Below are positions 19,124-39,212 of a DNA stretch of 64,000 nucleotides, piece after piece. Numbering within the stretch: position 1 is the stretch's first letter; the number at the start of each line of letters is the position of its first letter. The stretch spans positions 62,001 through 126,000 of the forward strand of contig NZ_FTMZ01000004.1 of the NCBI RefSeq assembly GCF_900156335.1. The letters are read 5' to 3'. The DNA comes from Sphaerotilus natans (GTDB taxonomy: Bacteria; Pseudomonadota; Gammaproteobacteria; Burkholderiales; Burkholderiaceae_C). The notes beneath the pieces were generated by a model. It did not search any database and was not told the DNA's origin. It was given only the letters and a program-made list of their open reading frames with translations. The translations under genes were made by a program, and so were the position numbers.

Positions 19124-20605
19124 ATGCGCCGCTCGCCCGACCTGCCGTGGAACCGTCTGGCCGAGCTGCCGCGCGAGCTGTGGCTGCCAGCCCTGGTGAG
19201 CAGCATCGGCCACGCCGAGGCGCGGCTGCGCGACACGCGGCGCTGGCAGCAGGCGCTGGAGGCCGGCACCCTGCCGCCGCCCGAGGCCGACCTGGGCGAT
19301 GCCGCCGCGCTGGCCCCGATGCGCGAGGCCGCCGCCGAGCTCGGCCTGCCCGGCCTGAGCCGAGGCCGCCCGGCGATGGCGCAGCAGGTGCTGCGCACGC
19401 TGCTGTGGCATCTGGACCGCATCGTCGATCAGCAGCCCCGGCTGACGCGGGCCGAGGCCATCACGGGCGCTGCAGCCGGCTTCCGGGCCGAATGGCAGCT
19501 CGAGGGCAGCGGCTGGGACGAGCGGCTGGTGCTGCTCGACAGCCTGGGCGATCCCTCGCGGCTGAGCTGGGACGAACTGCGCGGCCATCTGCGCTCGCGC
19601 GCCTGGCGCGAGGCCCAGCAGGCCGCGGCCTGGCTGGAGCGCCTGCCGCAGCTCGCCGCGCTGATCAGCCGCCTGGGCCGCGCCGAGCGCCAGGGCGGCC
19701 CGCCGCCGCAGGACGCGCCCGAGCCGCAGGCCGAGGCCCGCGCGGCCCACGGCCTGCGCGCCGTCGAGACCCGTCTGCCCGATGCGCCCGGCGAGCTCAC
19801 CGGCCTGCAGCTCACCGGGCGCATCGACCGGATGCTGGCCTCCGAGGCGGTGATGCTGCGCCACCCGCTGCTGCGCCGCCTCTGGCGCGCCCGTCAGGCC
19901 GAGTGCCGTCTGCTGGGATGGCAGTCCGAAGCGGTGCTGACCGACTGGCGCCCGGACCCGGCCGCGCCGCCGCGTGCCGCCCTGTCGCCGCCGGACCCGG
20001 AGCCGCTCGGCCGCGGCCCCTTCATCCTGTGCCTGGACACCTCCGGCTCGATGCGCGGCGCGCCCGAGAACATCGCCCGCGCGGTCGTCATCGCCGCGAT
20101 GCGCGCGGCCCACGCCGAGCGGCGCGGCTGCGTGCTGATCGCCTTTGGCGGCCCCGGCGAGGTGATCGAGCGCGAGCTCGACCTGAGCCCGGCCGGCCTG
20201 CAGGCACTGATGGACCTGATGGGCCAGACCTTCGACGGCGGCACCGACGTGCAGACGCCGATCGAGCGTGCGGTCGAGCGCGTCCACCAGGCACGCTGGC
20301 GCCAGGCCGACCTGCTGATCGTCAGCGACGGCGAGTTCGGCTGCATGCCCGCCACGCTGGCGCGGCTCGACCAGGCGCGCGAGCGCTTCGGCCTGCGGGT
20401 GCAGGGCGTGCTGGTGGGCGACCGCGAGACGATGGGCCTGCTCGACGCCTGCGACGACATCCACGGGGTGCGCGACTGGCGCCGCTACACCGACGATCCG
20501 CGCGCGGTCACCGAGGTCTCGCCGGTGCACAGCCGCAGCCTGACCGCGCTGTATTTCCCCAATGCGCTGTCGGGTCGGGCCGCAAGGCATCACAAAGTAC
20601 CCTAA
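19124..20605 (+). CDS. VWA-domain protein partner of the MoxR ATPase (ViaA-like)
   Basis: The 493-residue protein has an N-terminal helical region and a C-terminal von Willebrand A domain. The metal-dependent adhesion site is complete: DTSGSM (305-310), then a Thr in FDGGTDVQTPI and an Asp in LIVSDGEFGC. The arrangement with the preceding MoxR/RavA-type gene matches RavA-ViaA pairs, in which the VWA protein is client-binding and stimulates the ATPase. No lipid or export signal is seen, so both are expected in the cytoplasm. Its stop codon (20603-20605) lies inside the operator-like dyad of the next gene. Confidence 0.88.
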   Translation: MRRSPDLPWNRLAELPRELWLPALVSSIGHAEARLRDTRRWQQALEAGTLPPPEADLGDAAALAPMREAAAELGLPGLSRGRPAMAQQVLRTLLWHLDRIVDQQPRLTRAEAITGAAAGFRAEWQLEGSGWDERLVLLDSLGDPSRLSWDELRGHLRSRAWREAQQAAAWLERLPQLAALISRLGRAERQGGPPPQDAPEPQAEARAAHGLRAVETRLPDAPGELTGLQLTGRIDRMLASEAVMLRHPLLRRLWRARQAECRLLGWQSEAVLTDWRPDPAAPPRAALSPPDPEPLGRGPFILCLDTSGSMRGAPENIARAVVIAAMRAAHAERRGCVLIAFGGPGEVIERELDLSPAGLQALMDLMGQTFDGGTDVQTPIERAVERVHQARWRQADLLIVSDGEFGCMPATLARLDQARERFGLRVQGVLVGDRETMGLLDACDDIHGVRDWRRYTDDPRAVTEVSPVHSRSLTALYFPNALSGRAARHHKVP

Positions 20606-20617
20606 TGGGTATATAGA
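20598..20617 (+). promoter_or_regulatory. CsoR/CstR-like operator overlapping the -10 box of the MBL gene
   Basis: The dyad TACCC-TAAT-GGGTA (20598-20611) is followed directly by TATAGA (20612-20617), a good -10 box. The same 15-base string, with two mismatches, lies at 39162-39176 upstream of the RND operon that ends in a CsoR-family gene. A bound repressor would cover the -10 box. The expected transcription start (about 20624-20627) coincides with the ATG, and no Shine-Dalgarno sequence is present. The message may be leaderless. Confidence 0.65.
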
Positions 20618-20626
20618 ATCGCGGCC

Positions 20627-21547
20627 ATGAACACCGCCGCCCCCTTCGCCAGCCAGACCACCGGCCGGCTGCGCATCGACACCTTCTTCGACGAGGCCAC
20701 CTCGACCTTCTCGCATCTGGTGATCGACCTGGACAGCCGCCAGGCCGCGATCGTCGACAGCGTGCTCGACTACGACCCGAAGTCCGGCCGCACCGGCACG
20801 CGCGGCGCCGAGCGCTTGGCCGCGCAGGTCGAGGCGCTCGGGCTGACGGTGCAGTGGCTGCTCGAGACGCATGTGCACGCCGACCACCTCTCGGCGGCGC
20901 CGTGGCTGCAGGCGCGCCTGGGCGGCACGATCGCCATCGGCGCGCAGATCACCACGGTGCAGAAGACCTTCGGCGCGCTGTTCAACGCCGGCGAGGACTT
21001 CGCCCGCGACGGGCGCCAGTTCGGCCGGCTGTTCGCCGACGGCGACACCTTCGCGATCGGCGGCCTGCGCGCGACGGCGCTGCACACGCCCGGCCACACG
21101 CCGGCCTGCCTGACCTATGTGGTCGAGGATCCGGCCGACCCGCAGGCCACGCCGGCCGCCTTCGTCGGCGACACGCTGTTCATGCCCGACTACGGCACCG
21201 CGCGCTGCGACTTTCCCGGCGGCGATGCCGCGACGCTGTACCGCTCGATCCAGCGGGTGCTGGCCTTGCCCGGCGACACCCGGCTGTTCATGTGCCACGA
21301 CTACCGCCCGGGCGGACGCGCGCTGGCGCATGCGACGACGGTGGCCGAGCAGCGTGCGGCCAATGTGCATGTGCACCAAGGCATCGCCGAGGATGCCTTC
21401 GTGGCCATGCGCCGCGCACGCGACGCGACGCTGGACATGCCGGTGCTGATGCTGCCCTCGGTGCAGGTCAACATGCGCGCCGGCCACCTGCCGCCGCCGG
21501 AATCCAACGGCGTGCGCTATCTGAAAATCCCGCTCGACCGGCTCTGA
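20627..21547 (+). CDS. MBL-fold hydrolase, probable persulfide dioxygenase (ETHE1/Blh-like)
   Basis: This 306-residue metallo-beta-lactamase-fold enzyme has the metal motif THVHADH (81-87), a second ligand region HTPGHTPACLTY, then FVGDTLFMPDYGTARCDFPGGD and CHDYRPGG. The GDTLFMPDYGTARCDFPGG stretch is characteristic of the Blh/ETHE1 branch, which oxidises glutathione persulfide to sulfite. Function by family is well supported but sequence alone cannot fix the substrate. The operator-like dyad upstream, shared with the RND/CsoR operon, fits control by reactive sulfur. It is the only gene between the VWA gene and the SHOCT gene and is probably transcribed alone. Confidence 0.87.
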   Translation: MNTAAPFASQTTGRLRIDTFFDEATSTFSHLVIDLDSRQAAIVDSVLDYDPKSGRTGTRGAERLAAQVEALGLTVQWLLETHVHADHLSAAPWLQARLGGTIAIGAQITTVQKTFGALFNAGEDFARDGRQFGRLFADGDTFAIGGLRATALHTPGHTPACLTYVVEDPADPQATPAAFVGDTLFMPDYGTARCDFPGGDAATLYRSIQRVLALPGDTRLFMCHDYRPGGRALAHATTVAEQRAANVHVHQGIAEDAFVAMRRARDATLDMPVLMLPSVQVNMRAGHLPPPESNGVRYLKIPLDRL

Positions 21548-21605
21548 CATGCCGCGGTGCGGAGGGGTCTGCTAGGCTGACCGGCAGCACTCCCGAGGAA
21601 ACCCC

Positions 21606-22376
21606 ATGCTCCAGCTCTCCGACACCGGCCTTCAGGCCGTCGCCTCGATCGCCGCGCGCCACGGCTTCAGCACGGAGGCGGTGACCGTGATGCTGCAGGC
21701 GGTGCAGGCCGGCGGCGGCACGATGGCGCAGTTCAGCCATCCCGAGTTCGGCGGCTCCGGCCAGTGGATGAGCGGCGGCATGCTGATGCTCGGCGACATG
21801 TTCAACCACGGCCTGAAGGCGCGGGTCGACGGCCTGTGCCACGAGCTGGCCACGCTGGCAGCCACCCGCGGCGACCTGTGGCTGAGCGCACCGGTCTTCG
21901 GCGGCGGCAGCGCCTGGTGGCCGGCCGAGCTCGGCCAGCCGGCCGCCAGCGGCGCGCAGAACCAGATGCGCTACGCCTGGTTCCCGCAGGCCCGCCGCCT
22001 GGCGCTCGACAGCGGCGGCGAGGTGTGGATCTACGACACGCTCGACCACCAGATCGGCGGCTTCTCGCAGCAGCAGGGCGGCAGCGGCGGCATCGCGATG
22101 AGCAGCCAGTTCGGCCCGGTCGACCTGGCGCGGCTGCCGGTGGTGATGCGCGGCGGCGTGCCGGTCGCGCCGGCTCCGGTGCCCGCGCCCGCCCCGGCCT
22201 TCGCGCCGATCGCCCAGATCGCTCCGATGGCCCCGCCCGCAGCGATGTCGACCGGATCCACCGGCGGCGAGGACATCCTGGCGACGATCGAGAAGCTCGG
22301 CGCGCTGCTGCAGCGCGGCCTGCTGACCGAGCAGGAGTTCGCCGCGAAGAAGGCCGAATTGCTGGCGCGGCTCTGA
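21606..22376 (+). CDS. SHOCT-domain protein of unknown function
   Basis: The 256-residue product ends in a SHOCT domain (EDILATIEKLGALLQRGLLTEQEFAAKKAELLARL), a short helical module found at protein ends. The first ~180 residues contain a conserved-looking globular part (GGGTMAQFSHPEFGGSGQWMSGGMLMLGDMF...WFPQARRLALDSGGEVWIYDTLDHQIGGFSQQQ). A Pro/Ala linker of about 40 residues joins the two. No signal peptide or membrane segment is seen. The start follows a GAGGAAA ribosome-binding site. I do not know a function for the N-terminal part. Confidence 0.8.
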   Translation: MLQLSDTGLQAVASIAARHGFSTEAVTVMLQAVQAGGGTMAQFSHPEFGGSGQWMSGGMLMLGDMFNHGLKARVDGLCHELATLAATRGDLWLSAPVFGGGSAWWPAELGQPAASGAQNQMRYAWFPQARRLALDSGGEVWIYDTLDHQIGGFSQQQGGSGGIAMSSQFGPVDLARLPVVMRGGVPVAPAPVPAPAPAFAPIAQIAPMAPPAAMSTGSTGGEDILATIEKLGALLQRGLLTEQEFAAKKAELLARL

Positions 22377-22454
22377 AACCGCAATGATCCGATCCGCAAC
22401 AGTCGCATCGCGGACGGATCTACAAGAATCGGTGCGCTGCGGGCAGAATGGGCC

Positions 22455-23945
22455 ATGTCGCGCACCGTCATCACCACCCAAAGCTTCACCGACGCCGAGG
22501 CCGCGTTTGCGCACGCCAAGGCGATCTACGACTCCGGCATCGCGCACCTGCGCCAGTCGCTGAAGGAATTCGTCGGCGGCCGCGACGACTTCGGCGGGCG
22601 GGTGCGGGCCTGCTACCCCTTCGTGCGGGTGCGGGTCGACACCGTCGAGCGCGCCGACTCCCGGCTGGCCTACGGCTTCGTCGCCGGCCCCGGCGTGCAC
22701 GAGACCACGCTGACCCGGCCGGACCTGTTCCGCTACTACTACCGCGAGCAGTTCAAGCTGCTGCTGCGCAACCACGGCGTGGCGCTGGAGGTCGGGCTGT
22801 CGAGCCAGCCGATCCCGGTGCATTTCAGCTTCGCCGAGAACGACCACATCGAGGGCACGATGAGCGCGGAGCGGCGCACGCGCCTGCGCGACCTGTTCGA
22901 CCTGCCCGACCTGGCGGCGATGGACGACGGCATCGCCAACGGCACGCATGAGCCGCACACCGGCCACGACGGCCAGCTGCGCCACCCGCTGGCGCTGTTC
23001 ACCGCACCGCGGGTCGACTACTCGCTGCACCGGCTGCGCCACTACACCGGCACGCTGCCCGAGCACTTCCAGAACTACGTCCTGTTCACGAACTACCAGT
23101 TCTACATCGACGAGTTCGTGCGCCTGGGCCATGAGCTGATGGCCGACGACGCGGGCGAATACACCGCCTTCGTCGAGCCCGGCAATGTGCTGACGCGCCG
23201 CGCCGGCCTGCCCGCCGAGCCGGGCGACGCGCTGGGCGCGCCGCCGCCGCGTCTGCCGCAGATGCCGGCCTATCACCTGAAGCGCCACGGCCACAGCGGC
23301 ATCACGATGGTCAACATCGGCGTGGGGCCCAGCAACGCCAAGACCATCACCGACCACATCGCGGTGCTGCGCCCGCACGCCTGGCTGATGCTCGGCCACT
23401 GCGCCGGCCTGCGCAACACGCAGCAGCTTGGCGACTACGTGCTCGCCCACGGCTATGTGCGCGAGGACCATGTGCTCGACGAGGAACTGCCGCTGTGGGT
23501 GCCGATCCCGCCGCTGGCGGAGATCCAGGTCGCGCTCGAGTCGGCGGTGGCCGAGGTCACGCAGCTCTCCGGCTACGAGCTGAAGAAGATCATGCGCACC
23601 GGCACGGTGGCCTCCACCGACAACCGCAACTGGGAGCTGCTGCCGCATCCGGGTCCGGAGCGCCGCTTCAGCCAGAGCCGCGCCGTGGCGCTCGACATGG
23701 AAAGCGCGACGATCGCCGCGAACGGGTTCCGTTTCCGGGTTCCATACGGTACCCTGTTGTGTGTCTCCGACAAGCCGCTCCACGGCGAAATCAAGCTGCC
23801 CGGCATGGCCAACCACTTCTACCGCGAGCGGGTCGACCAGCACCTGCGCATCGGCATCCGCGCCATCGAGATCCTGCGCCACCAGGGGCTGGACCACCTG
23901 CACAGCCGCAAGCTGCGCAGCTTCGACGAGGTGGCCTTCCAGTGA
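22455..23945 (+). CDS. amn: AMP nucleosidase
   Basis: The 496-residue enzyme splits AMP into adenine and ribose 5-phosphate and helps control adenylate pools. The N-terminal AMP nucleosidase domain (YPFVRVRVDTVERADSRLAYGFV) precedes the phosphorylase-like core. The core shows GITMVNIGVGPSNAKTITDHIAVLRPHAWLMLGHCAGLR, then the substrate-binding ALDMESATIAANG and CVSDKPLHGEIKLPGMANHFYRERVDQHL. The length matches the family. It stands alone, 78 bases after the SHOCT gene. Confidence 0.95.
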   Translation: MSRTVITTQSFTDAEAAFAHAKAIYDSGIAHLRQSLKEFVGGRDDFGGRVRACYPFVRVRVDTVERADSRLAYGFVAGPGVHETTLTRPDLFRYYYREQFKLLLRNHGVALEVGLSSQPIPVHFSFAENDHIEGTMSAERRTRLRDLFDLPDLAAMDDGIANGTHEPHTGHDGQLRHPLALFTAPRVDYSLHRLRHYTGTLPEHFQNYVLFTNYQFYIDEFVRLGHELMADDAGEYTAFVEPGNVLTRRAGLPAEPGDALGAPPPRLPQMPAYHLKRHGHSGITMVNIGVGPSNAKTITDHIAVLRPHAWLMLGHCAGLRNTQQLGDYVLAHGYVREDHVLDEELPLWVPIPPLAEIQVALESAVAEVTQLSGYELKKIMRTGTVASTDNRNWELLPHPGPERRFSQSRAVALDMESATIAANGFRFRVPYGTLLCVSDKPLHGEIKLPGMANHFYRERVDQHLRIGIRAIEILRHQGLDHLHSRKLRSFDEVAFQ

Positions 23946-24009
23946 GGTGCGCTCCCTGAGATGACAGGCCGGGCACATCGCGCCCGCCTGCGGCCACGGC
24001 AGCAGATCC

Positions 24010-25185
24010 ATGGAACTTGATGTCCGAACGCTGATGGTCGCGTTCTCGGTGAACCTGTTCGCCGGCGCGATCGCCCTGCCGACCATCATGGGCTGGCGCC
24101 GCATCGGCATCGCGGCGCGCCATGCGGTGCTGGCCACCGGGCTGCAGGCCCTGGGCTGGCTGTGCCTGGTTCTGTCGACCCTGGTTCGCAACGAATGGCC
24201 CGACCGGCTGCTGTCGACGCTGGCGATGGGCGCGATGTCGGCCAGCCTGGTCACGCTGTGGCGGGCGATCCGGCTCTGGACCGGCCATGGCCGGCCCGAC
24301 GAGCGCAGTCTGGGCCTGATCGCGCTGTGGCTGCTGACCGGCCTGATGACGCTGGGCTACGGCATCGGCTTTACCAGCTACCCCTGGCGGGTCGGGTTGG
24401 CCAACGGGGTCCTGGGGCTGCAGATGCTGATGGTGGCAATGGCGGCGCTGACGCACTCGCCCGGCACGCACCGCGGCTGGCGCGCGGTGATCGCCGCCAG
24501 CATGGCGATCATGGCGACCATCACCTTCTGGCGCGGCATCCTGGGCGCCTTCTTCACCGAGAGCTATCCCTTCCTGACCGCACCGCATCCGATCAACCAG
24601 CTCTCGGCGCTGGTCAGCAGCGTGGTGCTGCTGCTGAACTCGATGGCGCTGCTGATGGCCTACCGCGAGGAAGCCGAGCGCCAGCTGCGCGAGCAGGCGA
24701 TCACCGATGGCCTGACCGGCCTGCTCAACCGCCGCGCCTGGACCGAGCGTGCCGAGGTGCTGCTGGCCGACGCACGCCGCTATCAGCAGCCACTCGGGCT
24801 GATGATGATCGACATCGATCATTTCAAGCGGGTCAACGACGAGCACGGCCATGCCCGGGGCGACCAGGCGCTGCAGCTGGTGGCGCGCATGCTGCACGAG
24901 CAGCTGCGCTCGGGCGATCTGGCCGGGCGCTACGGCGGCGAGGAGTTCTGCGTGCTGCTGACCCACACCCGCGAGGGCCCGGCGCTGTCGCTCGACCAGC
25001 GCCTGCGCCAGTGCCTGCGGCTGGAGTCGGAGCAGGCGCTGGGCTTCGTGCTGGAGTACAGCGCCGGCCTGGCCGCGCTCGGCGAGAACGACCGCACGCT
25101 CGACGACCTGCTGCGCCGCGCCGACGACGCGCTCTACGAAGCCAAGCGCGCCGGCCGCGCCCAGGTGGTGCTGGCCGCACGCTGA
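24010..25185 (+). CDS. Membrane-bound diguanylate cyclase (GGEEF)
   Basis: The 391-residue protein makes cyclic di-GMP. About seven hydrophobic segments fill residues 5-220 and probably form a membrane sensor. The GGDEF domain then begins at DGLTGLLNRRAW. It has DIDHFKRVNDEHGHARGDQAL and the active-site RYGGEEFCVL. An inhibitory-site RxxD (RSGD) lies five residues before GGEEF, so product inhibition is likely. No EAL domain is present. The signal sensed by the membrane part is unknown. Confidence 0.92.
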   Translation: MELDVRTLMVAFSVNLFAGAIALPTIMGWRRIGIAARHAVLATGLQALGWLCLVLSTLVRNEWPDRLLSTLAMGAMSASLVTLWRAIRLWTGHGRPDERSLGLIALWLLTGLMTLGYGIGFTSYPWRVGLANGVLGLQMLMVAMAALTHSPGTHRGWRAVIAASMAIMATITFWRGILGAFFTESYPFLTAPHPINQLSALVSSVVLLLNSMALLMAYREEAERQLREQAITDGLTGLLNRRAWTERAEVLLADARRYQQPLGLMMIDIDHFKRVNDEHGHARGDQALQLVARMLHEQLRSGDLAGRYGGEEFCVLLTHTREGPALSLDQRLRQCLRLESEQALGFVLEYSAGLAALGENDRTLDDLLRRADDALYEAKRAGRAQVVLAAR

Positions 25186-25312
25186 GCCCGCACGCGGCGA
25201 CATGATTCTTTACCGGGGACGCATCAGGAACCCGGAGCGGGCTTGATAAAAATCAGGGTAAACCCTTGGCTTCGCCACGAGCATGCTTCCACATGCCGTT
25301 GCAGCCCCCGCG

Positions 25313-26782
25313 ATGACCCTGACCCCTCCGCACCTCGCGCCACCGGTGCCCCGCCGGCTGACCCTGCTGGCCCTGGCGCTGCTGCTGGTCGGCTGCACCA
25401 GCCTGCCGCACACCACGGCCACGACACGCGCCGAAGCTGCCCTGCCGCCGATCACCGGCACAGACACCCCGGCCGCGACGCTGCCCGCGCTGTCGCGCTG
25501 GTGGCAGCAGTTCGATGATCCGCAGCTCGGCGCGCTGGTCGAAGAGGCGCTGACCGGCAATCTGGACATCGCCTCGGCCCGGGCCCGGGTGAACCAGGCG
25601 CGGGCGCTGCGCGAGCAGGCCGCCGCCGCGCTGGCGCCGCAGCTCGGCCTGGGCGCCAGCCTCACCCGCCAGCGCAGTAGCGGCAGCACGACGACGGTGC
25701 TGGCGCCCCAGCTTTCGGCCAGCTGGGAGCTCGACGCCAGCGGCCAGCTGGCCGCCACCGAGCGCGGTGCGGCGGCCGACCTGGCCTCGGCCGAGGCCAG
25801 CGCGCAGGCCAGCGCGCACAGCGTCGCTGGCGAGGTCGCGCTGGCGCATGTCGCGCTGCGCGGCAATCTGGCGCGGCGCGCGCTGGTGCAGGCCAGCCTC
25901 GAGGCGCAGCAGCAGACGCTGCAGCTCACGCAGTGGCGCGCGCAGGCCGGCCTGGCTTCGACGCTGGATGTCGAGCAGGCGCGCACCAGCCTCGAGCAGA
26001 CCCGCGCCCAGCTGCCGGCCTGGGACACCGCGATCACCCAGGGCGAACATGCGCTGGCGGTGCTGCTCGGCCTGGCGCCGAAGGCGCTGCAGGCCCGGCT
26101 CGGCCGCGACGACCGCCTGCCCTCGCCCGGCGAGGCGCTGGCCACGCTCGACCGCCAGCTCGAAGCCGGGGTTCCCGCCGGGTTGTTGCGCCGCCGCCCC
26201 GATCTGGTCGCCGCCGAGGCCACGATCGGCGCCGAGCTGGCCCGGCTGGATGCGCGCCAGGCGGCACGCCGGCCGGACTTCTCGCTGTCGGGCACGCTGG
26301 GCTGGCGAGCGCTGACGCTGGCCGCGCTGGGCGGCAGCGGCACGCTGGTGGCCACGCTGGCCGCCTCGGTCGACTGGCCGGTGCATGACGGCGGCCTGCG
26401 CGCCGCGCAGGTCGAGGCGCAGCAGGCGGTGCTGGCGCAGGCGCGACTGAGCTGGCGCGCCGCCACGCTGGCCGCCGCCCAGGACGCCGAGGACAGCCTG
26501 GCCGCAGCCGCCGGCAGCCGGGCGCAGGCGCGTGCGCTCGGGGAGGCGGTCAGCGCCGCCACCCAGGCGCTGGCGCTGGCCCGCCAGCGCTACCAGGCCG
26601 GCCTGATCGACTTCACCACGCTGCTCGACGCGCAGCGCACGCTGCTGACGCTGCAGACCAGCCAGGTCGGCGCCGAGGTCGAGCTGCGCCAGAACCTGAT
26701 CCGCCTGTTCAAGGCCCTCGGCGGTGGTCTGTCCGCCGCCGATCTGGCGGCGCTGCCCGTGCACGCCGCCTCCACCCGCTGA
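25313..26782 (+). CDS. NodT-type outer-membrane efflux lipoprotein (TolC family)
   Basis: The ~489-residue protein is the outer-membrane channel of the efflux operon that follows. A lipoprotein signal (RRLTLLALALLLVGC) places a lipid on the cysteine after LLVG. Two TolC-type repeats follow, with the usual WWQQFDDPQLGALVEEAL start and the ...LARQRYQAGLIDFTTLLDAQRTLLTLQTS motif in the second. The start at ATG 25313 gives a compact signal peptide; ATG 25283 is possible. Neither has a clear ribosome-binding site. The next gene begins 21 bases later. Confidence 0.9.
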   Translation: MTLTPPHLAPPVPRRLTLLALALLLVGCTSLPHTTATTRAEAALPPITGTDTPAATLPALSRWWQQFDDPQLGALVEEALTGNLDIASARARVNQARALREQAAAALAPQLGLGASLTRQRSSGSTTTVLAPQLSASWELDASGQLAATERGAAADLASAEASAQASAHSVAGEVALAHVALRGNLARRALVQASLEAQQQTLQLTQWRAQAGLASTLDVEQARTSLEQTRAQLPAWDTAITQGEHALAVLLGLAPKALQARLGRDDRLPSPGEALATLDRQLEAGVPAGLLRRRPDLVAAEATIGAELARLDARQAARRPDFSLSGTLGWRALTLAALGGSGTLVATLAASVDWPVHDGGLRAAQVEAQQAVLAQARLSWRAATLAAAQDAEDSLAAAAGSRAQARALGEAVSAATQALALARQRYQAGLIDFTTLLDAQRTLLTLQTSQVGAEVELRQNLIRLFKALGGGLSAADLAALPVHAASTR

Positions 26783-26803
26783 ATTCCCCCCCTCCCGTCT
26801 GCC

Positions 26804-28164
26804 ATGGCCTCCGCTGAACCCCACCGCTCCCGCGCCGATGACCCGGCCGCCGTCGCCGACCTGCTGGGCAGCGCCGCATTGCCCCGCCCGTGGTGGCGCC
26901 GCCGCAGCGTCTGGATCGGCGCGGCGCTGCTGCTGGCCGCCGGCGCCGGCCTGCTCGCCTGGCAGGGCCGCCAGCAGGCCCAGGCCGCGCCGCGCTTTCT
27001 CACCGAGCCGCTGGCCCGCGGTGACCTGACGATCACCGTGACCGCCAACGGCACGCTGCAGCCGATCCGCCAGGTCACGATCGGCTCGGAGCTCTCCGGC
27101 ACGATCCGCAAGGTCCATGTCGACGTCAACGACGAGGTGCGCGCCGGCCAGGTGCTGATCGAGCTCGACACCACCAAGCTCGACGACCAGATCGCCCGCT
27201 CGCGGGCGACGCTGGCCTCGGCCCAGGCCACGGTGCGCCAGGCCGAGGCCACGCTGGCCGAGCAGCGCGCCAGCCTGACGCGGCTGGAGGAGGTGTCGCG
27301 GCTGTCGGGCGGCCAGGTGCCCTCGGGCACCGAGCTGGACGCCGCCCGCGCCGCGCTGGCCCGCGCCGAAGCCGCGCTGGGCAGCGCCCGCGCCAGCGTG
27401 ACCGACGCCACCGCCGCGCTGCGCATGGACGAGACCAGCCGGGGCAAGGCCGAGATCCGCTCGCCGATCGACGGCGTGGTGCTGACCCGCTCGGCCGAGC
27501 CGGGCAATGCGGTGGCCGCCTCGCTGCAGGCGGTCACGCTGCTGACGCTGGCGCAGGACCTGCGGCAGATGAAGCTGCAGGTCAAGGTCGACGAGGCCGA
27601 CGTCGGCCTGGTGCAGGCCGGCCAGCGCGCCAGCTTCAGCGTCAGCACCTGGCCGGCGCGGCGCTTTCCGGCCGAGATCGCCCGGGTGGCCTACGGCTCG
27701 ACCACCACCGACAACGTCGTGACCTACGCCACCGACCTGAAGGTCGACAATGCCGACCTGAGCCTGCGCCCAGGCATGACCGCCACCGCCACCATCGCCG
27801 CCACCGAGCGCCGTGGCGTGCTGACGGTGCCCAACACCGCGCTGCGCTTCACGCCGGCCGCCGCCGGCACGGAGGCGGCAGCCGGCGACACCGGGCTGCT
27901 GTCGAAGCTGATGCCGCGCCCGCCCGGCGCCAGCACCCCGAAGCGCAGCGGCGGCGCGAAGACGACCGAAGGCGGCCAGCGCCAGATCTGGATCCTGAAG
28001 GACGGCGTGCCGCAGCCGCTCACCGTCACCACCGGCCTGAGCGACGGCCGCCGCACCGAGGTCAGCGGCGAAGGCCTGGCCGAGGGCGCGCCGGTCATCA
28101 CCGGCCAGGCCAGCGCCAGCGCCAGCGCCGGTGCCGGTGCCGGCAGCACACCGGGCAGCACCCG

Positions 28165-28168
<4 letters not shown>
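26804..28168 (+). CDS. macA: MacA-like periplasmic adaptor of an ABC efflux pump
   Basis: The 454-residue membrane-fusion protein has one N-terminal anchor (WIGAALLLAAGAGLLAW). A lipoyl half LTITVTANGTLQPIRQVTIGSELSGTI, an alpha-helical hairpin with heptads, and barrel domains follow. A Gly/Pro/Lys-rich insert precedes QRQIWILKDGVPQPLTVTTGLSDG. It matches MacA adaptors, which dock on MacB and a TolC-type channel. The last four bases overlap the ATPase start (ATGA). The C-terminal tail is Ala/Ser/Gly-rich. Confidence 0.92.
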
Positions 28169-28871
<703 letters not shown>

Positions 28872-28875
<4 letters not shown>

Positions 28876-30514: not shown

Positions 30515-30922
30515 ATGCGCAAGACCGCACCATCGGCCGACATGCCGTCGGTCCCCGTGCCGCCGGCGCCGGCGCCGATGCCGGGCAGTGGCGTGCCGCG
30601 CGAGCTGCTGATGCGCCACCCACGCACCGGCGAGGAGCGCATCGCGCCGGTGGGCTATGCCTGGTCGGTGCTGCTGGCCGGTCCGTTCGTGCTGGCCCGG
30701 CGCGGTGACTGGTCGATGGCGCTGGCCTGCCTGCTGCTGCCGCTGCTGGGTCAGGTGCTGCTGGCGCCGCAGGCCAATCGCCGCCATCTGCGCCGGCTGG
30801 TGGCACGCGGCTACCGGGCGGTGAGCACGGTTCCCGGCCGCGTCAGTCATGTGGAATGGGCGCTGGGCATGCAGATCCCGCGCTACAGCGGTCGCCGAGA
30901 AGACATCTCGCGCTTCGAGTAG
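30515..30922 (+). CDS. Small membrane protein of unknown function
   Basis: The 135-residue product has a Pro-rich N-terminus and then two hydrophobic segments (VGYAWSVLLAGPFVLARRG and MALACLLLPLLGQVLLAP). A basic cytoplasmic-looking tail follows (RRHLRRLVARGYRAVS). It resembles DUF2628-type membrane proteins by layout, but I cannot name it with certainty. A GGAG ribosome-binding site sits 8 bases before the ATG, and a promoter candidate lies about 190 bases upstream. It appears to be a single-gene unit. Confidence 0.65.
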   Translation: MRKTAPSADMPSVPVPPAPAPMPGSGVPRELLMRHPRTGEERIAPVGYAWSVLLAGPFVLARRGDWSMALACLLLPLLGQVLLAPQANRRHLRRLVARGYRAVSTVPGRVSHVEWALGMQIPRYSGRREDISRFE

Positions 30923-31108
30923 GACGCCGACCTGGCCCGATCCCGCAGCCGACGTGAGCGGGTGCGGGTCGTTCAGGGCCACCGTCTTCACGCGCTCGGG
31001 CCCATGGTCCTGCCACCGGCCCCGCGCATCCGGCAGAGAAGCGCCACCGCCATGCCGCTCATCGGCGCGGGTCCGGCCTCAAGTCGGCGCCCGTGAGGCC
31101 GACGCCGC

Positions 31109-32746
31109 TCAGCGCGGCCGTCCCTCGCCCGGTTCGGGGCGCAGTCCCAGCTTCTGCCCGACCGTCAGCCGCTCGTCCGACAGCACGTCGAGAAAGTCCG
31201 ACAGGCGCTTGGAGCGCACGATCATGTAGCCGGTCAGCAGCAGCGAAGCCAGCAGCGTGATCCCGAGAATCAGCAGGCGCTCGGGCCAGGGACGATCGGC
31301 CTCGTCGAGCAGGTTCATGCCGAGAAAGCCGGTCGACAGCGTGCCGATCAGCCCGGCGATCGTCACCACCGTCAGCCGCACCACGGTGTTGGCCTGCCGG
31401 CGCAGGCTGTCGGTGTCGAGGTAGGTGTTCATCTCGCTGACACGCTCGCGCACCTCGGGGTGCAGCGCATCCAGGCCGAGGTGATCGGCGCACAGTCGGT
31501 GCAGCGCGCGGGTCTGGGCCTGCTCGGACAGGTCGTGGAACCAGTAGCGGTGGGTGAAGCGCAGGAAGGTCTCGAAGTTGCCGCGCACCGCGCGCTTGAA
31601 GCGCTTGACCGAGCTGGCGTCATGGATCTCCAGCGCGTCGAGCGCCACCACCAGCCGGTCGGAGAACATCAGCAGCGCCGCCTTCTGGAAGTGCGCGATC
31701 AGGAACATCAGGAAATGCTGGTGGCGGAACTGCGCCAGCACGCCGCGCTCGCGGTCGACGAAGAAGCGCGAGCCCGCGCGCCCGACCACCACCAGCGCAT
31801 GGCCGCAGCACAGATAGCGGGTGAAGGGCGCCGCGCCGCCGGGGCGCCAGAAGCGGTCGTAGCAGTGGCGGGCCTCGAAGTCGGCGACATGGCGCTCGGC
31901 GAAGGGCAGCTCGTCCTCGCCGTCGCTGCCCTGCCCGGCCACCAGCCCGAGGCGGATGAAGTCGGCGCGCCCGAGCGCGGCCGGATCGTCCAGCGCCAGC
32001 CAGGCCATCACCGGCATGCGGTGGTACTCGATCTGGCGCACCCGCAGCAGCGGGCCCGCGCCATCGTCGGGTTCCTCGTCCTGCTCCGGGCGCAGCGGCT
32101 GCAGCAGCCAGCGCCAGTGCGCCGCCAGCCGCGGCGCGCGGTGCAGGCCGACGAAGTCCAGAAAGGCCTGGCGGTCGGCCGCGTCCGACGCGCACAGCGT
32201 CCGGTCGTCGGCGCCGAGCCACTCGACCTCGCTGGCGCAGTGCAGCGGCTGGCCCTCGCCGTCCCAGCCCGGCGGATAGGCGCGGCCGAAGCGGTAGAGC
32301 AGCTCCTGCGCCACCGGCAGCGGCAGCTCGTCGGCATGGACCTCGACATGCAGCACCACCACGTCGACATCGTGGAAGAAGTAGAGGTCGACATGCTCGA
32401 CCGCCAGCCGCAGCGCCGGTTGGTCCGGCGCCAGACGCAGGCGCACCGCCCGCACGTCATCGCGGCGCAGCACCCGCATCGACGAGCCCCCTCCGGTGCG
32501 CGCACTGCCGGCGCGCGGCCCGTCGCCGTAGAGGAAGCGCTGCACATGCGGCAGGAAGGTCACGAACTCCTGGTAGTGGCGCTCGCTCGACGGGCCGTGG
32601 CGCATCTCGGCGGCCTCGCGCCACGGACTGCCCGGGCGCTCGAGCACCGCGGTCCAGGGCTGCAGGCGCAGCCGCTCGTCCTGGCGCGGCAGCAGCTGCA
32701 GCGGCCACAGCAGGCGCTGGCGGAAGTGGCGAATCATCAGGCTCAT
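31109..32746 (-). CDS. CorA-like divalent metal ion transporter with a long N-terminal domain
   Basis: The 545-residue protein ends with two membrane helices. The first is followed by the CorA hallmark Gly-Met-Asn (STGFLGMNLLD). CorA family members form pentameric channels for Mg2+, Co2+ or Ni2+. The cytoplasmic part is much longer than the ~260 residues usual for CorA. It contains acidic stretches (EQDEEPDDGAG) and Cys-containing segments (RYLCCGHALVVVGR). That places it in a divergent CorA-like branch whose ion is unknown. It is transcribed away from the glycosyltransferase gene, with 84 bases between the two starts. Confidence 0.8.
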   Translation of the reverse strand: MSLMIRHFRQRLLWPLQLLPRQDERLRLQPWTAVLERPGSPWREAAEMRHGPSSERHYQEFVTFLPHVQRFLYGDGPRAGSARTGGGSSMRVLRRDDVRAVRLRLAPDQPALRLAVEHVDLYFFHDVDVVVLHVEVHADELPLPVAQELLYRFGRAYPPGWDGEGQPLHCASEVEWLGADDRTLCASDAADRQAFLDFVGLHRAPRLAAHWRWLLQPLRPEQDEEPDDGAGPLLRVRQIEYHRMPVMAWLALDDPAALGRADFIRLGLVAGQGSDGEDELPFAERHVADFEARHCYDRFWRPGGAAPFTRYLCCGHALVVVGRAGSRFFVDRERGVLAQFRHQHFLMFLIAHFQKAALLMFSDRLVVALDALEIHDASSVKRFKRAVRGNFETFLRFTHRYWFHDLSEQAQTRALHRLCADHLGLDALHPEVRERVSEMNTYLDTDSLRRQANTVVRLTVVTIAGLIGTLSTGFLGMNLLDEADRPWPERLLILGITLLASLLLTGYMIVRSKRLSDFLDVLSDERLTVGQKLGLRPEPGEGRPR

Positions 32747-32830
32747 GGCTCAGGATTGTCCACATCGCTCGGCTGCAGCGGCGATGCAGCCTTCTTTCAA
32801 TTCCGGAACCTCGCGATACTGCCCGGCATC

Positions 32831-34078
32831 ATGCGCATCCTCTTCGTCCACCAGAACTTTCCCGGCCAGTACGTCCACCTCGCCCCGGCGCTGGCCCAGG
32901 CCGGTCACGAGGTGCGCGCGCTGATGCTCGAGCCCACCGCGCGGCCGCTGCCCGGCGTGGCCTGCACCCGCTACAAGGTCACGCGCAGCAGCACGCCGCA
33001 GATCCACCCGTGGGTGGCGGAATACGAGACCAAGGTGCTGCGCGGCGAGGGCTGCGCACGCGCCGCGCTGGCGCTGCGCGAGCAGCACGGCTTCATGCCC
33101 GACGTGATCTGCGTGCATCCCGGCTGGGGCGAGGCGCTGTTCCTGCGCGACATCTGGCCCGAGGCGCGCCAGCTGCACTTCGTCGAGTGGTTCTACGGCT
33201 GGGAGGGCCACGACGTGACCTTCGATCCGGAGTTCCCGCCGCGCGGCATCGAGGCGCGGCTGAGGCTGCGCGCGAAGAACACCCACCTGCTGCAGGGCCT
33301 GGTCGACATGGACGCCGGCGTGTCGCCGACCGCCTGGCAGCGCTCGACGGTGCCGCAGGCCTTCCAGCACAAGATCCGCACGCTGCACGACGGCGTCGAC
33401 ACCGACCTGATCCGCCCCGACCCCGAAGCGGTCTTCGAGCACGGCGCGCTGCGACTGCGCCACGGCGACGAGGTGCTGAGCTTCATCAACCGCAACTTCG
33501 AGCCCAACCGCGGCTATCACGTCTTCATGCGTGCGCTGCCGGCGCTGCTGCGCGAGCGCCCGCAGGCGCAGGTGGTGCTGGTCGGCGGCAGCGGCGTGTC
33601 CTACGGCGCGCGCCCGCAGGACGGCCGCAGCTGGCAGGACACGCTGCTCGCGGAGATCGCGCCGCAGCTCGACGAGGCGATGCGCGCGCGCCTGCACTTC
33701 GTCGGCCGGCTGCCGCATCCGCAGCTGATGAAGCTCTACCAGGTGACCCGCGCCCATGTCTACCTGACCTACCCCTTCGTGCTGTCGTGGTCGATGCTGG
33801 AGGCGATGTCGGCCGGTGCGCTGGTGATCGGCTCGCGCACCGCGCCGGTCGAGGAGGTGATCGAGCACGGCCGCAACGGCCTGCTGGTCGACTTCTTCGA
33901 CCGCGAGGGCCTGGTGCGCACGATGGCCGACGCGCTGGCCGCGCCGCCCGGCACGCATGACGCGATCCGCAGCACCGCGCGCGAGACGATCGTGCGCCGC
34001 TACGACCTGCGCCGCGTCTGCCTGCCGGGGCAGGTGGCGCTGGTCGAGGAGATCGGGCGCGGCCCGCGGGTCGCCTGA
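32831..34078 (+). CDS. GT4-type glycosyltransferase
   Basis: The 415-residue enzyme has the GT-B fold. The N-terminal domain starts MRILFVHQNFPGQYVHLAPALAQAGHEV. The C-terminal nucleotide-sugar domain shows VLVGGSGVSYG, HFVGRLPHPQLMKLYQVTRAHVYLTYPFVLSWSMLEAMSAGALVIGS and APVEEVIEHGRNGLLVDFFD. The last includes the usual Glu-containing E-x7-E region of family GT4. No membrane segment is seen. No other polysaccharide gene is adjacent, so the acceptor is unknown. The ATG was chosen because the frame continues far upstream without coding signature. Confidence 0.88.
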   Translation: MRILFVHQNFPGQYVHLAPALAQAGHEVRALMLEPTARPLPGVACTRYKVTRSSTPQIHPWVAEYETKVLRGEGCARAALALREQHGFMPDVICVHPGWGEALFLRDIWPEARQLHFVEWFYGWEGHDVTFDPEFPPRGIEARLRLRAKNTHLLQGLVDMDAGVSPTAWQRSTVPQAFQHKIRTLHDGVDTDLIRPDPEAVFEHGALRLRHGDEVLSFINRNFEPNRGYHVFMRALPALLRERPQAQVVLVGGSGVSYGARPQDGRSWQDTLLAEIAPQLDEAMRARLHFVGRLPHPQLMKLYQVTRAHVYLTYPFVLSWSMLEAMSAGALVIGSRTAPVEEVIEHGRNGLLVDFFDREGLVRTMADALAAPPGTHDAIRSTARETIVRRYDLRRVCLPGQVALVEEIGRGPRVA

Positions 34079-34103
34079 CGGCCACGGTCAATGCCGCGAC
34101 CGG

Positions 34104-35011
34104 TCAACCGGCCTCGCGCATCGCCTCGGCCAGGAAGTCGACCACCGCCTGGATGCGCGGCAGCCGGTCGCGCTCGGGCAGCATCACCGCCCAGACCGGC
34201 GCCCAGCCCGGATCGCGGAACGGCGCCAGCACCTCGACCAGCTCGCCGCGCGCCAGCAGCGGCGCAACCAGCAGCGTGCTGTGCCAGCCCAGGCCGAGAC
34301 CTGAGCGCACCATTTCCAGCCCGAGCCAGGTGGTGTTGGCACTGAAGCGACCGCTCACCGGCCAGGGCCGGCGCTCGCCGTCGACCACGAAGGTCCAGCG
34401 GTTCAGATGCCCGGCGTTCAGGTGCGTGACCAGCGGAAAGCGCGCCAGATCGGCCGGCGTCTGCGGCGTGCCCAGCCGCGCCAGCAGCGCAGGCGCCGCG
34501 CAGACGACGCGCCGGAAGCGCCCGACCCGGCGCGCCACCAACCCCTCGTGGCGCAGATGGTTGGTGCGCAGCGCAACATCGAAGCCTTCGGCCGCCAGAT
34601 CGACGATGCGGTCGTCGGCATGCAGCTCGATGCGCAGGTCGGGTGACGCGCCGCCAGCGCGGGCAGCGCCGGCACGACAAAGCACTGCGCCAGCGCCGGG
34701 CTGACCGCCAGCCGCACGACGCCGCTGGCGCGCTCGCGCCGTGCCGACAGCTCGTCGGCCAGATCGCCCAGCGCGGCCAGCACCTGGCGGGCATGCTGCA
34801 GCAGCGTGCCGCCCTCCGGCGTCAGGCTCAGGCCGTGGGTCGAGCGGCGCAGCAGCCGCACCCGGTAGAGCGCCTCCAGCCGGTCGACCGCGCGCGCCAC
34901 CGCCGAGAACGAGCCCAGCTCGGCCACGTGCACGAACAGCGCCAGGTCGGCTGGCGCGGCATGGGCGGGCGCCTCGGGCGGAAAGGCATCAGGACGGGTC
35001 TTGCTCGGCAT
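34104..35011 (-). pseudogene. LysR-family regulator, disrupted by an internal deletion and a frameshift
   Basis: Two lesions are visible. First, the N-terminal helix-turn-helix reads GSFSAVARAV directly into DRLEALYRVRLLRRS. About a dozen residues that normally form the recognition helix (the x-S-x-S-A-V-S-R type segment) are missing. Second, the reading frame shifts near 34640-34645. Frame one runs ...PALAARHP and then becomes nonsense. The effector-binding part (PDLRIELHADDRIVDLAAEGFDVALRTNHL onward) continues in another frame to the stop at 34104. One missing base in the GGG run would explain it. Even with the frame repaired it should not bind DNA normally. It is divergent from the tautomerase gene, its probable former target. 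Confidence 0.85.
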
Positions 35012-35092
35012 GCAAAGGCGCTGGGCACGGCGGGGACTGTCCCCGGGCGGGCGTGAAACCTAGTCTAGCGCCATGTTCCACGGGAGATCCCC

Positions 35093-35509
35093 ATGCCTCT
35101 GCTGACCCTGAGCACCTGGCCGGCGCTGACGCAGCCCGAGCAGCGCCACGCCATCGCCCGCGAGCTGACCGGCCACACCGAGCGGCTGCTCGGCAAGAAG
35201 CGCGCGCTGACCGCGGTCGCGGTGCTGGCCGAGCCGATCGGCTGGACGATCGGCGGCGAGCCGGTCGAGCCACCGGACCGCGCCGCCGAGGCCGGCCCGG
35301 CGCGGTCCACCTTCGCGCTGGAGATCCGCATCACCGCAGGCACCAACACCGCGCAGCAGAAGGCCGACTGGATCGCCGCGGCCTGGGACACGCTGCGCCG
35401 CGCGCTGCCGGAGGCGCTGGTCGAGGCCAGCTACGTCAGCGTGCTCGAGCTGCCGGCCGACGACTGGGGCTGGGGCGGCCGCACGCAGGCGGCGCGGCTG
35501 CCCCGCTGA
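35093..35509 (+). CDS. Tautomerase-superfamily protein
   Basis: The 138-residue protein begins MPLLTLSTWPALT. After removal of Met this exposes the N-terminal proline that serves as catalytic base in the 4-oxalocrotonate tautomerase superfamily. The beta-alpha-beta pattern continues with QRHAIARELTGHTERLLGKKRALTAVAVL and a second half after a linker. The length fits a fused or long tautomerase. A GGGAGA ribosome-binding site precedes the ATG. It lies divergent from the broken LysR gene, whose loss may have altered its control. Confidence 0.78.
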   Translation: MPLLTLSTWPALTQPEQRHAIARELTGHTERLLGKKRALTAVAVLAEPIGWTIGGEPVEPPDRAAEAGPARSTFALEIRITAGTNTAQQKADWIAAAWDTLRRALPEALVEASYVSVLELPADDWGWGGRTQAARLPR

Positions 35510-35527
35510 GTGCGCCGAACCCGCGCC

Positions 35528-37036
<1,509 letters not shown>

Positions 37037-37037
<1 letters not shown>

Positions 37038-38314
37038 TGCGCCGCCGCCGCTGTCTCCAGGCCCTGATGGCCGCCGGCGTGACCGGCCTGAACGGCTGCG
37101 CCGCGCCGCGCGGCTCGGCGCTGGCGCGCGCGCGCGTGCTGGTCGTCGGCGGGGGCTACGCCGGCGCGACCGCGGCCAAATACCTGCGGCTGCTGTCGGA
37201 CCAGGCGATCGACGTCACGCTGGTCGAACCCAACCCGCAGCTGGTGTCCTGCCCGATATCGAACGGGGTGATCGGCGGGCTGCGCACGCTGGACGACATC
37301 ACGCTGTCCTACGACCGGCTGAGCGCACGCCATGGCGTGCGCCGGGTGCAGGACCGCGTCGCGGCGATCGACCCGCAGCGCCGCGTCGCGACGCTGGCCG
37401 GCGGCGCGCGGCTCGGCTACGACCGGCTGGTGCTGGCGCCGGGCGTCGATTTCCTCTGGGACCGCATCGAGGGCCTGAAGGCGGCGCATGACGCGGGCCG
37501 CGTGCTGCACGCCTGGAAGGCCGGCGCGGAAACGCTGGCGCTGGCGCGGCAGATCGAGGCGATGCCCGACGGCGGCACCTGCGTCATCGCCATTCCCGAG
37601 GCGCCCTACCGCTGCCCGCCTGGCCCCTACGAGCGCGCCTGCCTGATCGCCGCCCGGCTGCGCCGCACCCACCCGCGCGCGAAGGTGCTGGTGCTCGACG
37701 CCAATCCGGACATCACCTCCAAGGCGGCGCTGTTCCGCCAGGCCTGGAAGGATCTGTACCCGGGCATGATCGAGTACCGGCCGCAGCACCGCGTCACCGG
37801 CGTCGACGCGCGCACGATGACGCTGCGCTTCGAGGTCCAGGAGGACCTGCGCGCCGATGTCATCAACCTGCTGCCGGACATGCGTGCCGGCGACCTGGCC
37901 GCGCACGCTGGCCTGGCCACCGCCAACGGGCGCTGGTGCCCGGTGGACTTTCTCGACTTCCACTCGGTGCACGCGCCGGACCTGCATGTGCTGGGCGACG
38001 CGCTGCAGAGCGCGCCGGGCATGCCCAAGTCCGGCCACATGGCCAACGCGCAGGCCAAGGTCGCCGCCGCGGCCATCGTCGCGGCGCTGCTCGACCTGGA
38101 GGTCGATCCGCGGCCGATGCTCAACAACGTCTGCTACAGCCTGGTCGACACGGACCAGGCCATCCATGTCGCCAGCGTGCACGCCTGGCAGCCGCAGCAG
38201 CGCAGCTTCGTGCCGGTGCCCGGCGCCGGCGGCCTGTCGGCGCAGCGCTCCGCGCTGGAGGCCCGGCACGCCGAGGCCTGGGCGCGCAACATCTGGGCGG
38301 ACATGCTGGGCTGA
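37037..38314 (+). CDS. fccB: Flavocytochrome c sulfide dehydrogenase, flavoprotein subunit
   Basis: The 425-residue flavoprotein oxidises sulfide to sulfur or polysulfide in the periplasm and passes electrons to the cytochrome. An Arg-rich, Tat-like signal (RRRRCLQALMAAG) leads to the FAD-binding VLVVGGGYAGATAAKYLR. Redox cysteines are seen in QLVSCPISNGVIGG and in YRCPPGPYERACLIA. The C-terminal part has HVLGDALQSAPGMPKSGHMANAQ and a FCSD-type tail (MLNNVCYSLVDTDQAIHVASVH). The length is typical. The soxZ stop lies four bases away on the other strand. Confidence 0.94.
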
Positions 38315-38318
38315 AGCC

Positions 38319-38642
38319 TCAGCCGATCAGCGTCTCGTCGCTGCGCTGCTCGCCGCGGCTGTCGGTCCAGGTGACGGACAGCCGGCTGCCGGCCGGCGCG
38401 GCCGCCGCGCGCAGCACGAACTGCAGATAGGGATGGCGCGACACCGACGGCCCCCAGTGCGCCTGCATCACCACCCGGCCGTCGAGCCGGGCGACGACCT
38501 CGCGGATGTGCCAGGCCGGCACCCGGCGGCCCGCCTCGTCGAGGCGCCGGCCGTTCTCCATCTCGTGGCTCATCAGCACCCGCACGACGACGCGCTCGCC
38601 CTGGCGCAGCGCGCGGATGCGCATCGGCTGCGGCTCAGCCAC
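38319..38642 (-). CDS. soxZ: Sulfur-carrier complex protein SoxZ
   Basis: The 107-residue SoxZ pairs with SoxY to carry sulfur intermediates in the periplasm. It shows MRIRALRQGERVVVRVLMSHEMENGRR, PAWHIREVVARLDGRVV and the closing SRLSVTWTDSRGEQRSDETLIG. The start was placed at GTG 38642 because GGAGG lies 5 bases before it; the internal ATG at 38624 has none. It overlaps the soxY end by eight bases. Other sox genes (XA, B, CD) are not in this window, so the pair may serve another pathway, such as storing sulfur from FccAB. Confidence 0.9.
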   Translation of the reverse strand: MAEPQPMRIRALRQGERVVVRVLMSHEMENGRRLDEAGRRVPAWHIREVVARLDGRVVMQAHWGPSVSRHPYLQFVLRAAAAPAGSRLSVTWTDSRGEQRSDETLIG

Positions 38643-39102
38643 CGCAGCCTCCGAGCGTGACCTGCACCGCCTTGCGCGCGAACAGCACCCGGCCATCGTG
38701 CATCAGCGCGACCGCCCAGACCGGCGAGGACTCGGCCATGCGGGTGCGGATGACGACATCGGGCTCCAGTGCCGGATCGACCTCGAACAGCGCGCACAGC
38801 GCCGTCGGGTTGCGCTCGACCAGCAGCAGCAGCCGGCGCACGCCCTCGAGCCGGGTCGCGCAGCCCAGCGACACCGCCGCGCCGTTCTCGGCGATGTCGG
38901 GCGCGCTCAGGCGAATGTCGGCGCTCTCGACCGGCGCGGCCAGGCCGAGCGCGGCCAGCGCGGCGTCGATGCCGATGGCGGCGAAGGCGGCCTCGTTCCA
39001 GGCGGCCTGCGCCGGCGCGGGCAGCAGCCCGAGACCGGCCAGCAGGCCGGCAACGGCCGCGCTGCGACCGAGCAGCTCGCGACGGACAGGACAGGTGCAC
39101 AT
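38635..39102 (-). CDS. soxY: Sulfur-carrier protein SoxY
   Basis: The 155-residue protein has a Tat-like signal (RRELLGRSAAVAGLLAGLGLLPAPAQA). It ends in the swinging-arm motif GGCGG, whose cysteine holds the sulfur intermediate. The body shows the SoxY beta-sandwich (VESADIRLSAPDIAENGAAVSLGC). Like soxZ it runs opposite to fccAB. Its start lies 59 bases from the CsoR-type operator at 39161, which could also control it. Confidence 0.9.
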   Translation of the reverse strand: MCTCPVRRELLGRSAAVAGLLAGLGLLPAPAQAAWNEAAFAAIGIDAALAALGLAAPVESADIRLSAPDIAENGAAVSLGCATRLEGVRRLLLLVERNPTALCALFEVDPALEPDVVIRTRMAESSPVWAVALMHDGRVLFARKAVQVTLGGCGG

Positions 39103-39160
39103 GTCCGCATGCTAGCCGGGCGCAGCCTGCTGCGAAAAGCCCTTTTCTTCAGATCGATTG

Positions 39161-39179
39161 ATACCCTTATAGGTATTTT
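39161..39179. promoter_or_regulatory. CsoR/CstR-like operator in the soxY / RND divergent gap
   Basis: ATACC (39161-39165) and GGTAT (39172-39176) flank CTTATA. The 15 bases at 39162-39176 match 13 of 15 with the site at 20598-20612. TATTTT (39174-39179) could be the -10 box of the RND operon. The site sits before the operon whose last gene is the CsoR-family repressor, so autoregulation is likely. Its central position could also affect soxYZ. Confidence 0.65.
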
Positions 39180-39212
39180 GCTACCATGCATTCCATCATG
39201 GAGATCGCCGAG

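Follow-up and report, generated by a model that had tools for sequence, protein, structure and literature searches.

The window analysed here (the whole stretch of 64,000 nucleotides from Sphaerotilus natans contig NZ_FTMZ01000004.1; G+C content 70%) contained two similar short dyads, candidate operators 1 and 2 (Table 1). Operator 1 stood before a gene for a persulfide dioxygenase (PDO) homolog. Operator 2 stood before an operon encoding an adaptor of the membrane fusion protein (MFP) type, a resistance-nodulation-division (RND) permease, a DUF2892 protein and, as last gene, a CsoR-family regulator; it was separated by 59 bp from the start of the divergent soxY. A sequence-only reading of this DNA had proposed that both dyads were CsoR-type operators connecting the PDO gene with the RND operon. 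The dyads it described were confirmed, with 13 of 15 bases identical, as was its MFP-RND-DUF2892 operon ending with a CsoR-family gene (family matches, all on the plus strand).

A search of the window with operator 1, allowing up to two mismatches, returned operator 1 itself and operator 2 only, and nothing in 100 dinucleotide shuffles. The core TACC-N6-GGTA was likewise limited to these two places (0.06 expected), and none of 100 shuffles contained two. A genome-wide motif search, as suggested with the sequence-only reading, covered 4.63 Mb in 57 contigs; TACCYNWWNRGGTA, the core version with A/T-rich central bases, occurred only at operators 1 and 2. The looser TACC-N6-GGTAT (any centre, final T) was found at three places, the third being C38:34772. 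A search for ATACCCTTATAGGTAT allowing 3 mismatches gave three further matches; the closest of them, with 2 mismatches, was at C38:64486, inside a coding sequence that we take to be a rhodanese (by recognition, without a search), and no sulfur role is claimed for it. A larger regulon was sought in this genome, and besides the two operators only the loose match at C38:34772 and the rhodanese-internal near match were found. The ViaA-like VWA gene upstream ended within operator 1, its stop codon being at 20603-20605, so that operator and coding sequence overlapped.

The position of the element was conserved at the MFP-RND operon. Eighty named loci (L numbers) were taken as the best 80 of 516 confirmed candidate relatives of the regulator, and 22 of them, without an MFP gene having more than 150 bases upstream, were not counted. 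Of the remaining 58 loci, 51 had TACC-N6-GGTA in the 400 bp before the MFP gene, a proportion that leans to close orthologs because the loci were the best 80 of 516; none of 83 control half-site/spacer combinations of equal composition exceeded 3 of 58. When the threshold for MFP was tightened, the count was 49 of 56 loci. Among 60 sites, whose half-sites were fixed by the search, the outer A and the outer T, both outside the search pattern, were each present in 59. Six of the seven loci without an exact core had a 9-of-10 match (uncontrolled, and left out of the count). Two operators were found in 11 loci; in seven of these (L204, L207, L208, L222, L234, L249 and L260) they lay upstream of the MFP gene with a spacing of 24 bp, roughly two turns of the helix. 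In the 37 genomes whose ortholog scored at least 85 bits, the extended pattern ATACC-N6-GGTAT occurred at 83 places, against 10 for the reversed pattern; in 163 other genomes, which are no clean negative because some hold more distant CsoR-like genes, the counts were 123 and 78. Altogether 102 genomes had any match.

The PDO gene was present in 10 of 13 genomes of the genus (G numbers denote genomes), and the operator stood just before it in six of these ten congeners (G000, G058, G204, G207, G208 and G209). The half-sites and TATATAGAAT were kept in the six promoters, whereas the six central bases varied. Among the named loci, the operator immediately preceded two of six PDO genes (L216, L219); another two PDO genes were in loci where it stood before a gene for a sulfide:quinone oxidoreductase (SQR; L221, L240).

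Orthologs from 36 genomes of the family formed a wider set, several of these genomes being also among the 80. Its 36 loci held SQR-type genes in 13 cases, OsmC-type genes in 21 and SLAC1/TDT genes in 11. The operator was located just before SQR in L083, L167, L221, L230 and L240, and just before the SLAC1 gene in L229; by analogy with fungal relatives, we infer that SLAC1 may be a sulfite exporter. Within the genus, further operators preceded SQR (G202), a small rhodanese gene (G208) and a carboxymuconolactone-decarboxylase-family gene (G207). The operator also stood directly before DUF2892-csoR where MFP was absent (G133, L191), and single loci of the wider set had the core before DUF2892-csoR (L079), SQR-csoR (L083), csoR alone (L102) or an outer-membrane-factor-like open reading frame (ORF) preceding the MFP gene (L081). 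The sulfur theme of the sequence-only reading was thus strengthened by SQR, OsmC, SLAC1 and dioxygenase genes at the sites or in the same operons of relatives. Some matches in relatives fell within coding sequence, among them three of the TACCCCGGCTGGTA type or similar inside SLAC1 genes (L192, L195, L208), and were excluded as evidence.

Other arrangements were seen at these loci. The divergent soxYZ/RND layout with the dyad in between was also present in L185 and L237. In L083 (8180-10245 as oriented) two csoR copies flanked the SQR gene, whose own dyad preceded the aligned start by 11 bp. In the congener loci L188, L189, L193, L267, L269, L271 and L272, the neighbours of csoR were taken to be small genes resembling cytochromes and a repressor gene of the ArsR type, and some of these congeners had no adjoining RND operon. 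In L158 (G208) and L165 (G058) the dyad stood between a divergent second adaptor-like gene and what is presumably an FMN-reductase/ArsH-like gene.

Table 1. Candidate operators, promoter elements and genes in the window
Feature	Position	Strand	Basis or remark
Candidate operator 1, TACCCTAATGGGTAT	20598-20612 (core TACC-N6-GGTA 20598-20611)		15 bp before dioxygenase ATG
Putative -10 TAGAAT of dioxygenase gene	20614-20619	+	By eye; TATATAGAAT kept in 6 congeners
PDO homolog, 306 aa, without rhodanese domain	20627-21547	+	Solved-structure matches (see text)
Cytochrome-like ORF beside the flavocytochrome c flavoprotein	36669-37037	+	Weak match, PF13442 below cut-off
Flavocytochrome c sulfide dehydrogenase flavoprotein	within ORF 36836-38314	+	PF21706, PF09242
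soxZ	38319-38696	-	PF08770 91.8 bits; divergent from RND operon
soxY	38635-39102	-	PF13501 95.3 bits; divergent from RND operon
Promoter-like TTGATA-18-TACCAT, overlapping operator 2	39158-39187	+	Promoter scan, 0.1 expected in shuffles
Candidate operator 2, TACCCTTATAGGTAT	39162-39176 (core 39162-39175)		Between divergent soxY and MFP gene
RND periplasmic adaptor (MFP)	39213-40301 (longer ORF from 39186)	+	TIGR01730 188.2 bits, above cut-off
RND permease (ACR_tran)	40334-43591	+	PF00873 above Pfam cut-off; above no NCBIfam cut-off
DUF2892 (Pfam name now YgaP-like_TM) transmembrane protein, 77 aa	43593-43826	+	PF11127 48.4 bits
CsoR-family regulator, 111 aa, Cys52 and Cys76	43889-44224	+	PF02583 E 4.4e-20, 72.3 bits, cut-off 22.8

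The PDO homolog had its best solved-structure matches in 4ysk/4ysl (E 3e-133, 446.8 bits over residues 14-306) and also matched ETHE1 4chl (E 4e-22, 81.9 bits). Homology of this predicted enzyme was full-length and the HxHxDH motif of persulfide dioxygenases was present as THVHADH; the score against the Blh model NF040641 (364 bits) was under the cut-off of 625. Two components of an RND efflux system, adaptor and permease, were present above cut-off. No outer-membrane factor gene was found between 39186 and 44224, the rest of the genome not being searched for one. The gap before the regulator gene was 62 bp. No SQR match was obtained in the 4.63 Mb. According to a published comparison, fccAB is found in all 38 genomes studied from this group, and some Sphaerotilus have only soxY and soxZ among the sox genes (PMC13386937).

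The genome contained two PF02583 genes: the last gene of the operon and an FrmR-like one on contig C10, standing before a dehydrogenase gene, a pair that we take to be FrmR-FrmA. Since the other CsoR-family paralog was FrmR-like, the regulator encoded at 43889 is the natural candidate reader of both dyads. It scored 28.4 bits against the FrmR model (cut-off 133), and the best family models included RicR and FrmR, both far under cut-off. Its nearest named relative, among those compared, was from Sphaerotilus sulfidivorans (96%), and its best solved-structure sequence matches were 7mq1-7mq3 (CstR). Cys52 and Cys76, 24 residues apart and not 29, were present in 80 of 80 close orthologs, and position 81 was never cysteine. 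With the sequence from the window counted in, the wider set had both cysteines in 36 of 38 regulator sequences; L088 lacked the first and L099 both, and these two sequences were left out of alignment A1. The two cysteine-deficient homologs, L099 (G139) and L088 (G076), were located away from any RND operon.

CsoR copper sensors have Cys-His-Cys ligands (C36, H61 and C65 in Mycobacterium tuberculosis). In a profile alignment to CstR/CsoR, gap-free over helix 2, Cys76 fell directly before the copper-ligand His position of CsoR. That position held Phe or Tyr, and the position of the second Cys held E, Q, H, K or R, in 80 of 80 orthologs; from the ligand set only the first Cys was present, the other two positions being unmatched in all 80. 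The predicted monomer model suggested a three-helix arrangement in which helix 2 begins at about Cys52 and contains Cys76, structure comparison being weak for a helical bundle.

The pair 24 apart also occurred in eight of eight fetched members of a more distant CsoR-like clade. In three of the eight (G012, G023 and G194) csoR was followed by a same-strand dioxygenase-like gene of 28-33% identity, with the operator just upstream in G012 and G023; these two cases illustrate the arrangement and give no rate, because they were chosen for sites seen nearby. In the loci L288, L289 and L295, more distant csoR genes with the 24-residue spacing were located directly 5' of an ETHE1-like dioxygenase gene; in L288 the gene divergent from csoR is presumably YeeE/YedE-like.

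The sequence-only reading had placed each dyad on the -10 box of the gene downstream. This was only roughly right: the dyads lay between promoter hexamers or at their edge, and not both on a -10 box. Relative to the promoter-like element that the scan gave at the RND operon, most of operator 2 falls in the spacer, with an overlap at the -35. At the dioxygenase gene, where the scan found no consensus promoter, operator 1 abutted a TATAGAAT stretch ending about 8 bases before the ATG. No Shine-Dalgarno sequence was visible there (20611-20627) and the layout was the same in congeners; judged from these features, the mRNA is probably nearly leaderless. For MFP, the ATG at 39213 was a likelier start than 39186 (GGAG in front; signal peptide).

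On the comparative evidence, the product of 43889-44224 is probably a repressor of the CsoR family that controls a small regulon for sulfur detoxification, including the PDO gene, the pump operon and the regulator itself. In its reduced form it would bind both TACC-N6-GGTA dyads (starting at 20598 and 39162), blocking RNA polymerase at the dioxygenase and MFP-RND-DUF2892-csoR promoters; by the latter block it would repress itself too. Sulfide would be oxidised, here probably by flavocytochrome c, since the genome search gave no match to SQR. Sulfane sulfur would then modify Cys52 and/or Cys76 and the repressor would leave the DNA, allowing the dioxygenase to convert persulfide to sulfite and the pump and its DUF2892 partner to be made. 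Control of soxYZ from operator 2 is also possible, by analogy with the L185 and L237 layout and with the repression of sox genes by Thermus thermophilus TTHA1953 (PMC10318464).

Several results weigh against this proposal. The canonical second Cys of known sulfur sensors was missing from the regulator. In the wider set, where 7 of 36 loci without an MFP gene were not counted, only 15 of 29 loci had an exact core in the roughly 180 bp before MFP, and 5 of 12 congeners with the regulator had no TACC-N6-GGTAT near the regulator gene. Eighteen of the 83 ATACC-N6-GGTAT places were in G139, where 13 of 15 examined looked coding; without this genome there were 65 in 36 genomes. The idea of a large G139 regulon under the regulator without both cysteines was dropped for the same reason, though its sites are still in the count of 83. 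The PDO gene, here more distant (68-72% identical), had no operator in G170, G201, G203 and G205, all four with the regulator, and in the wider set a close PDO was found in 13 of 37 genomes, preceded by the operator in only two, both in the genus. Comparing these two of 13 with the six of ten congeners and with L216 and L219, the trans link is a trait conserved in some members of the genus that also occurs independently outside it, and is no family-wide rule. The proportions of 51/58 and 15/29 at the RND operon and of 6/10 at the congener dioxygenase genes nonetheless support, at the level of comparative genomics, a shared CsoR-type operator linking the two transcription units.

The signal may be other than sulfane sulfur. 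A repressor of disulfide or electrophile stress, responding to general thiol oxidation and with sulfur genes as one part of the response, would agree with the OsmC-family genes in 21 of the 36 loci and with TTHA1953, whose DNA binding was abolished by oxidation whereas NaHS had no such effect (PMC10318464); this was considered unlikely, the constant partners being sulfide and persulfide enzymes. A Cu/Ni sensor, with the RND pump as metal exporter for its main target and the dioxygenase as a side target, would fit the CsoR family membership and the presence of RicR and FrmR among the best, if far sub-threshold, family models. The 16-bp element of Streptomyces coelicolor CsoR (ScCsoR), the same as here, is moreover described as similar to the sites bound by copper sensors in Geobacillus and M. 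tuberculosis (RicR) (PMC7533328), and the operator therefore does not tell the signal. The absence of the His and second Cys ligands in all 80 orthologs, the permease score of 232.6 against a CusA/CzcA cut-off of 701.45, and the relatives' operons, which held SQR, OsmC, SLAC1 and PDO genes and no metal gene (in scans limited to chosen query families), make this sensor very unlikely, and Cu or Ni, mentioned as inducers in the sequence-only reading, were ranked low on the residues at the two ligand positions.

The reader of the dyads could also be another protein, with csoR as a bystander, and the congeners with the regulator and no nearby site would be explained in this way. The site was nevertheless kept with the csoR operon, including DUF2892-csoR without MFP in G133 and L191, stood directly before csoR-like genes of the second clade (G012, G023), and is of an operator type known for CsoR proteins from the Streptomyces work (PMC7533328), so that another binder is highly improbable. 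A chance similarity or a general promoter element would be suggested by the GGTAT half-site running into the AT-rich -10 region, and by the own genome, where TACC-N6-GGTAT gave 5 oriented matches against 4 for the reversed control, no excess. Chance was rejected by the shuffles (0 of 100) and the 83 control palindromes, none above 3 of 58 loci, and with the positional conservation this explanation is barely credible. Repression of a sulfur regulon by the CsoR-family protein is retained as the preferred reading.

The resemblance to CsoR/CstR operators noted from the sequence alone was substantiated by the literature: ScCsoR was shown to bind ATACC-N6-GGTAT before its persulfide dioxygenase gene (PMC7533328). 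ScCsoR thus shares with the present system the family, the operator, and PDO and its own gene as targets, these targets being predicted here. Its regulon includes a sulfite transporter and a rhodanese (PMC7533328), and SLAC1 and rhodanese-type genes were found at sites in the relatives here. The differences concern the cysteines (Cys37/Cys66, 29 apart, in ScCsoR) and the RND pump and DUF2892, which do not appear in the ScCsoR regulon as described (PMC7533328), whereas the pump operon was the most constant target found here. CstR from Staphylococcus aureus and S. pneumoniae and YrkD from Bacillus licheniformis are similar in family and in control of sulfide/persulfide enzymes (PMC9774590, PMC9918477). 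CstR links Cys31 and Cys60, 29 apart (PMC9774590); the position of Cys60 is not Cys in the present regulator, which had the TACC-N6-GGTA-type operator at sulfide/persulfide genes but not the 29-residue pair. TTHA1953 is a CsoR-family protein with two cysteines repressing sulfur-oxidation genes far from its own gene, among them sox genes, and here a sox pair adjoins operator 2; its site, TACNNTACNNNNGTANNGTA, and its cysteines (Cys39/Cys68, 29 apart) both differ from those here (PMC10318464).

The ArsR-family repressors BigR and SqrR reportedly control dioxygenase genes against sulfide stress, as proposed here, with an unrelated repressor family and a different operator. The operator type and the PDO target were already known (ScCsoR, PMC7533328); the present system departs from ScCsoR in its cysteine geometry and in having the RND pump. 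A tentative extension, which we regard as rather less than probable, is that Burkholderiales have a separate class of CsoR-family sulfane-sulfur sensors, whose second thiol is displaced by five residues on helix 2 (24 instead of 29 from the first), with a geometry unlike the di-, tri- or tetrasulfide bridge of CstR; the core target might be an RND pump for the export of persulfide or further products carrying sulfane sulfur, along with DUF2892, SQR, OsmC and an anion channel of the SLAC1 type. A literature search, with subscription papers mostly outside its reach, returned no CsoR-type sulfur regulator described for this Burkholderiales group.

The proposed regulon would provide a sequence-defined sulfur regulon for a large environmental group (Sphaerotilus, Leptothrix, Ideonella, Rubrivivax and kin), and would tie an efflux pump to sulfide detoxification. 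With the displaced cysteine, the way in which CsoR-family proteins tell sulfur from metal becomes testable by swapping one residue position.

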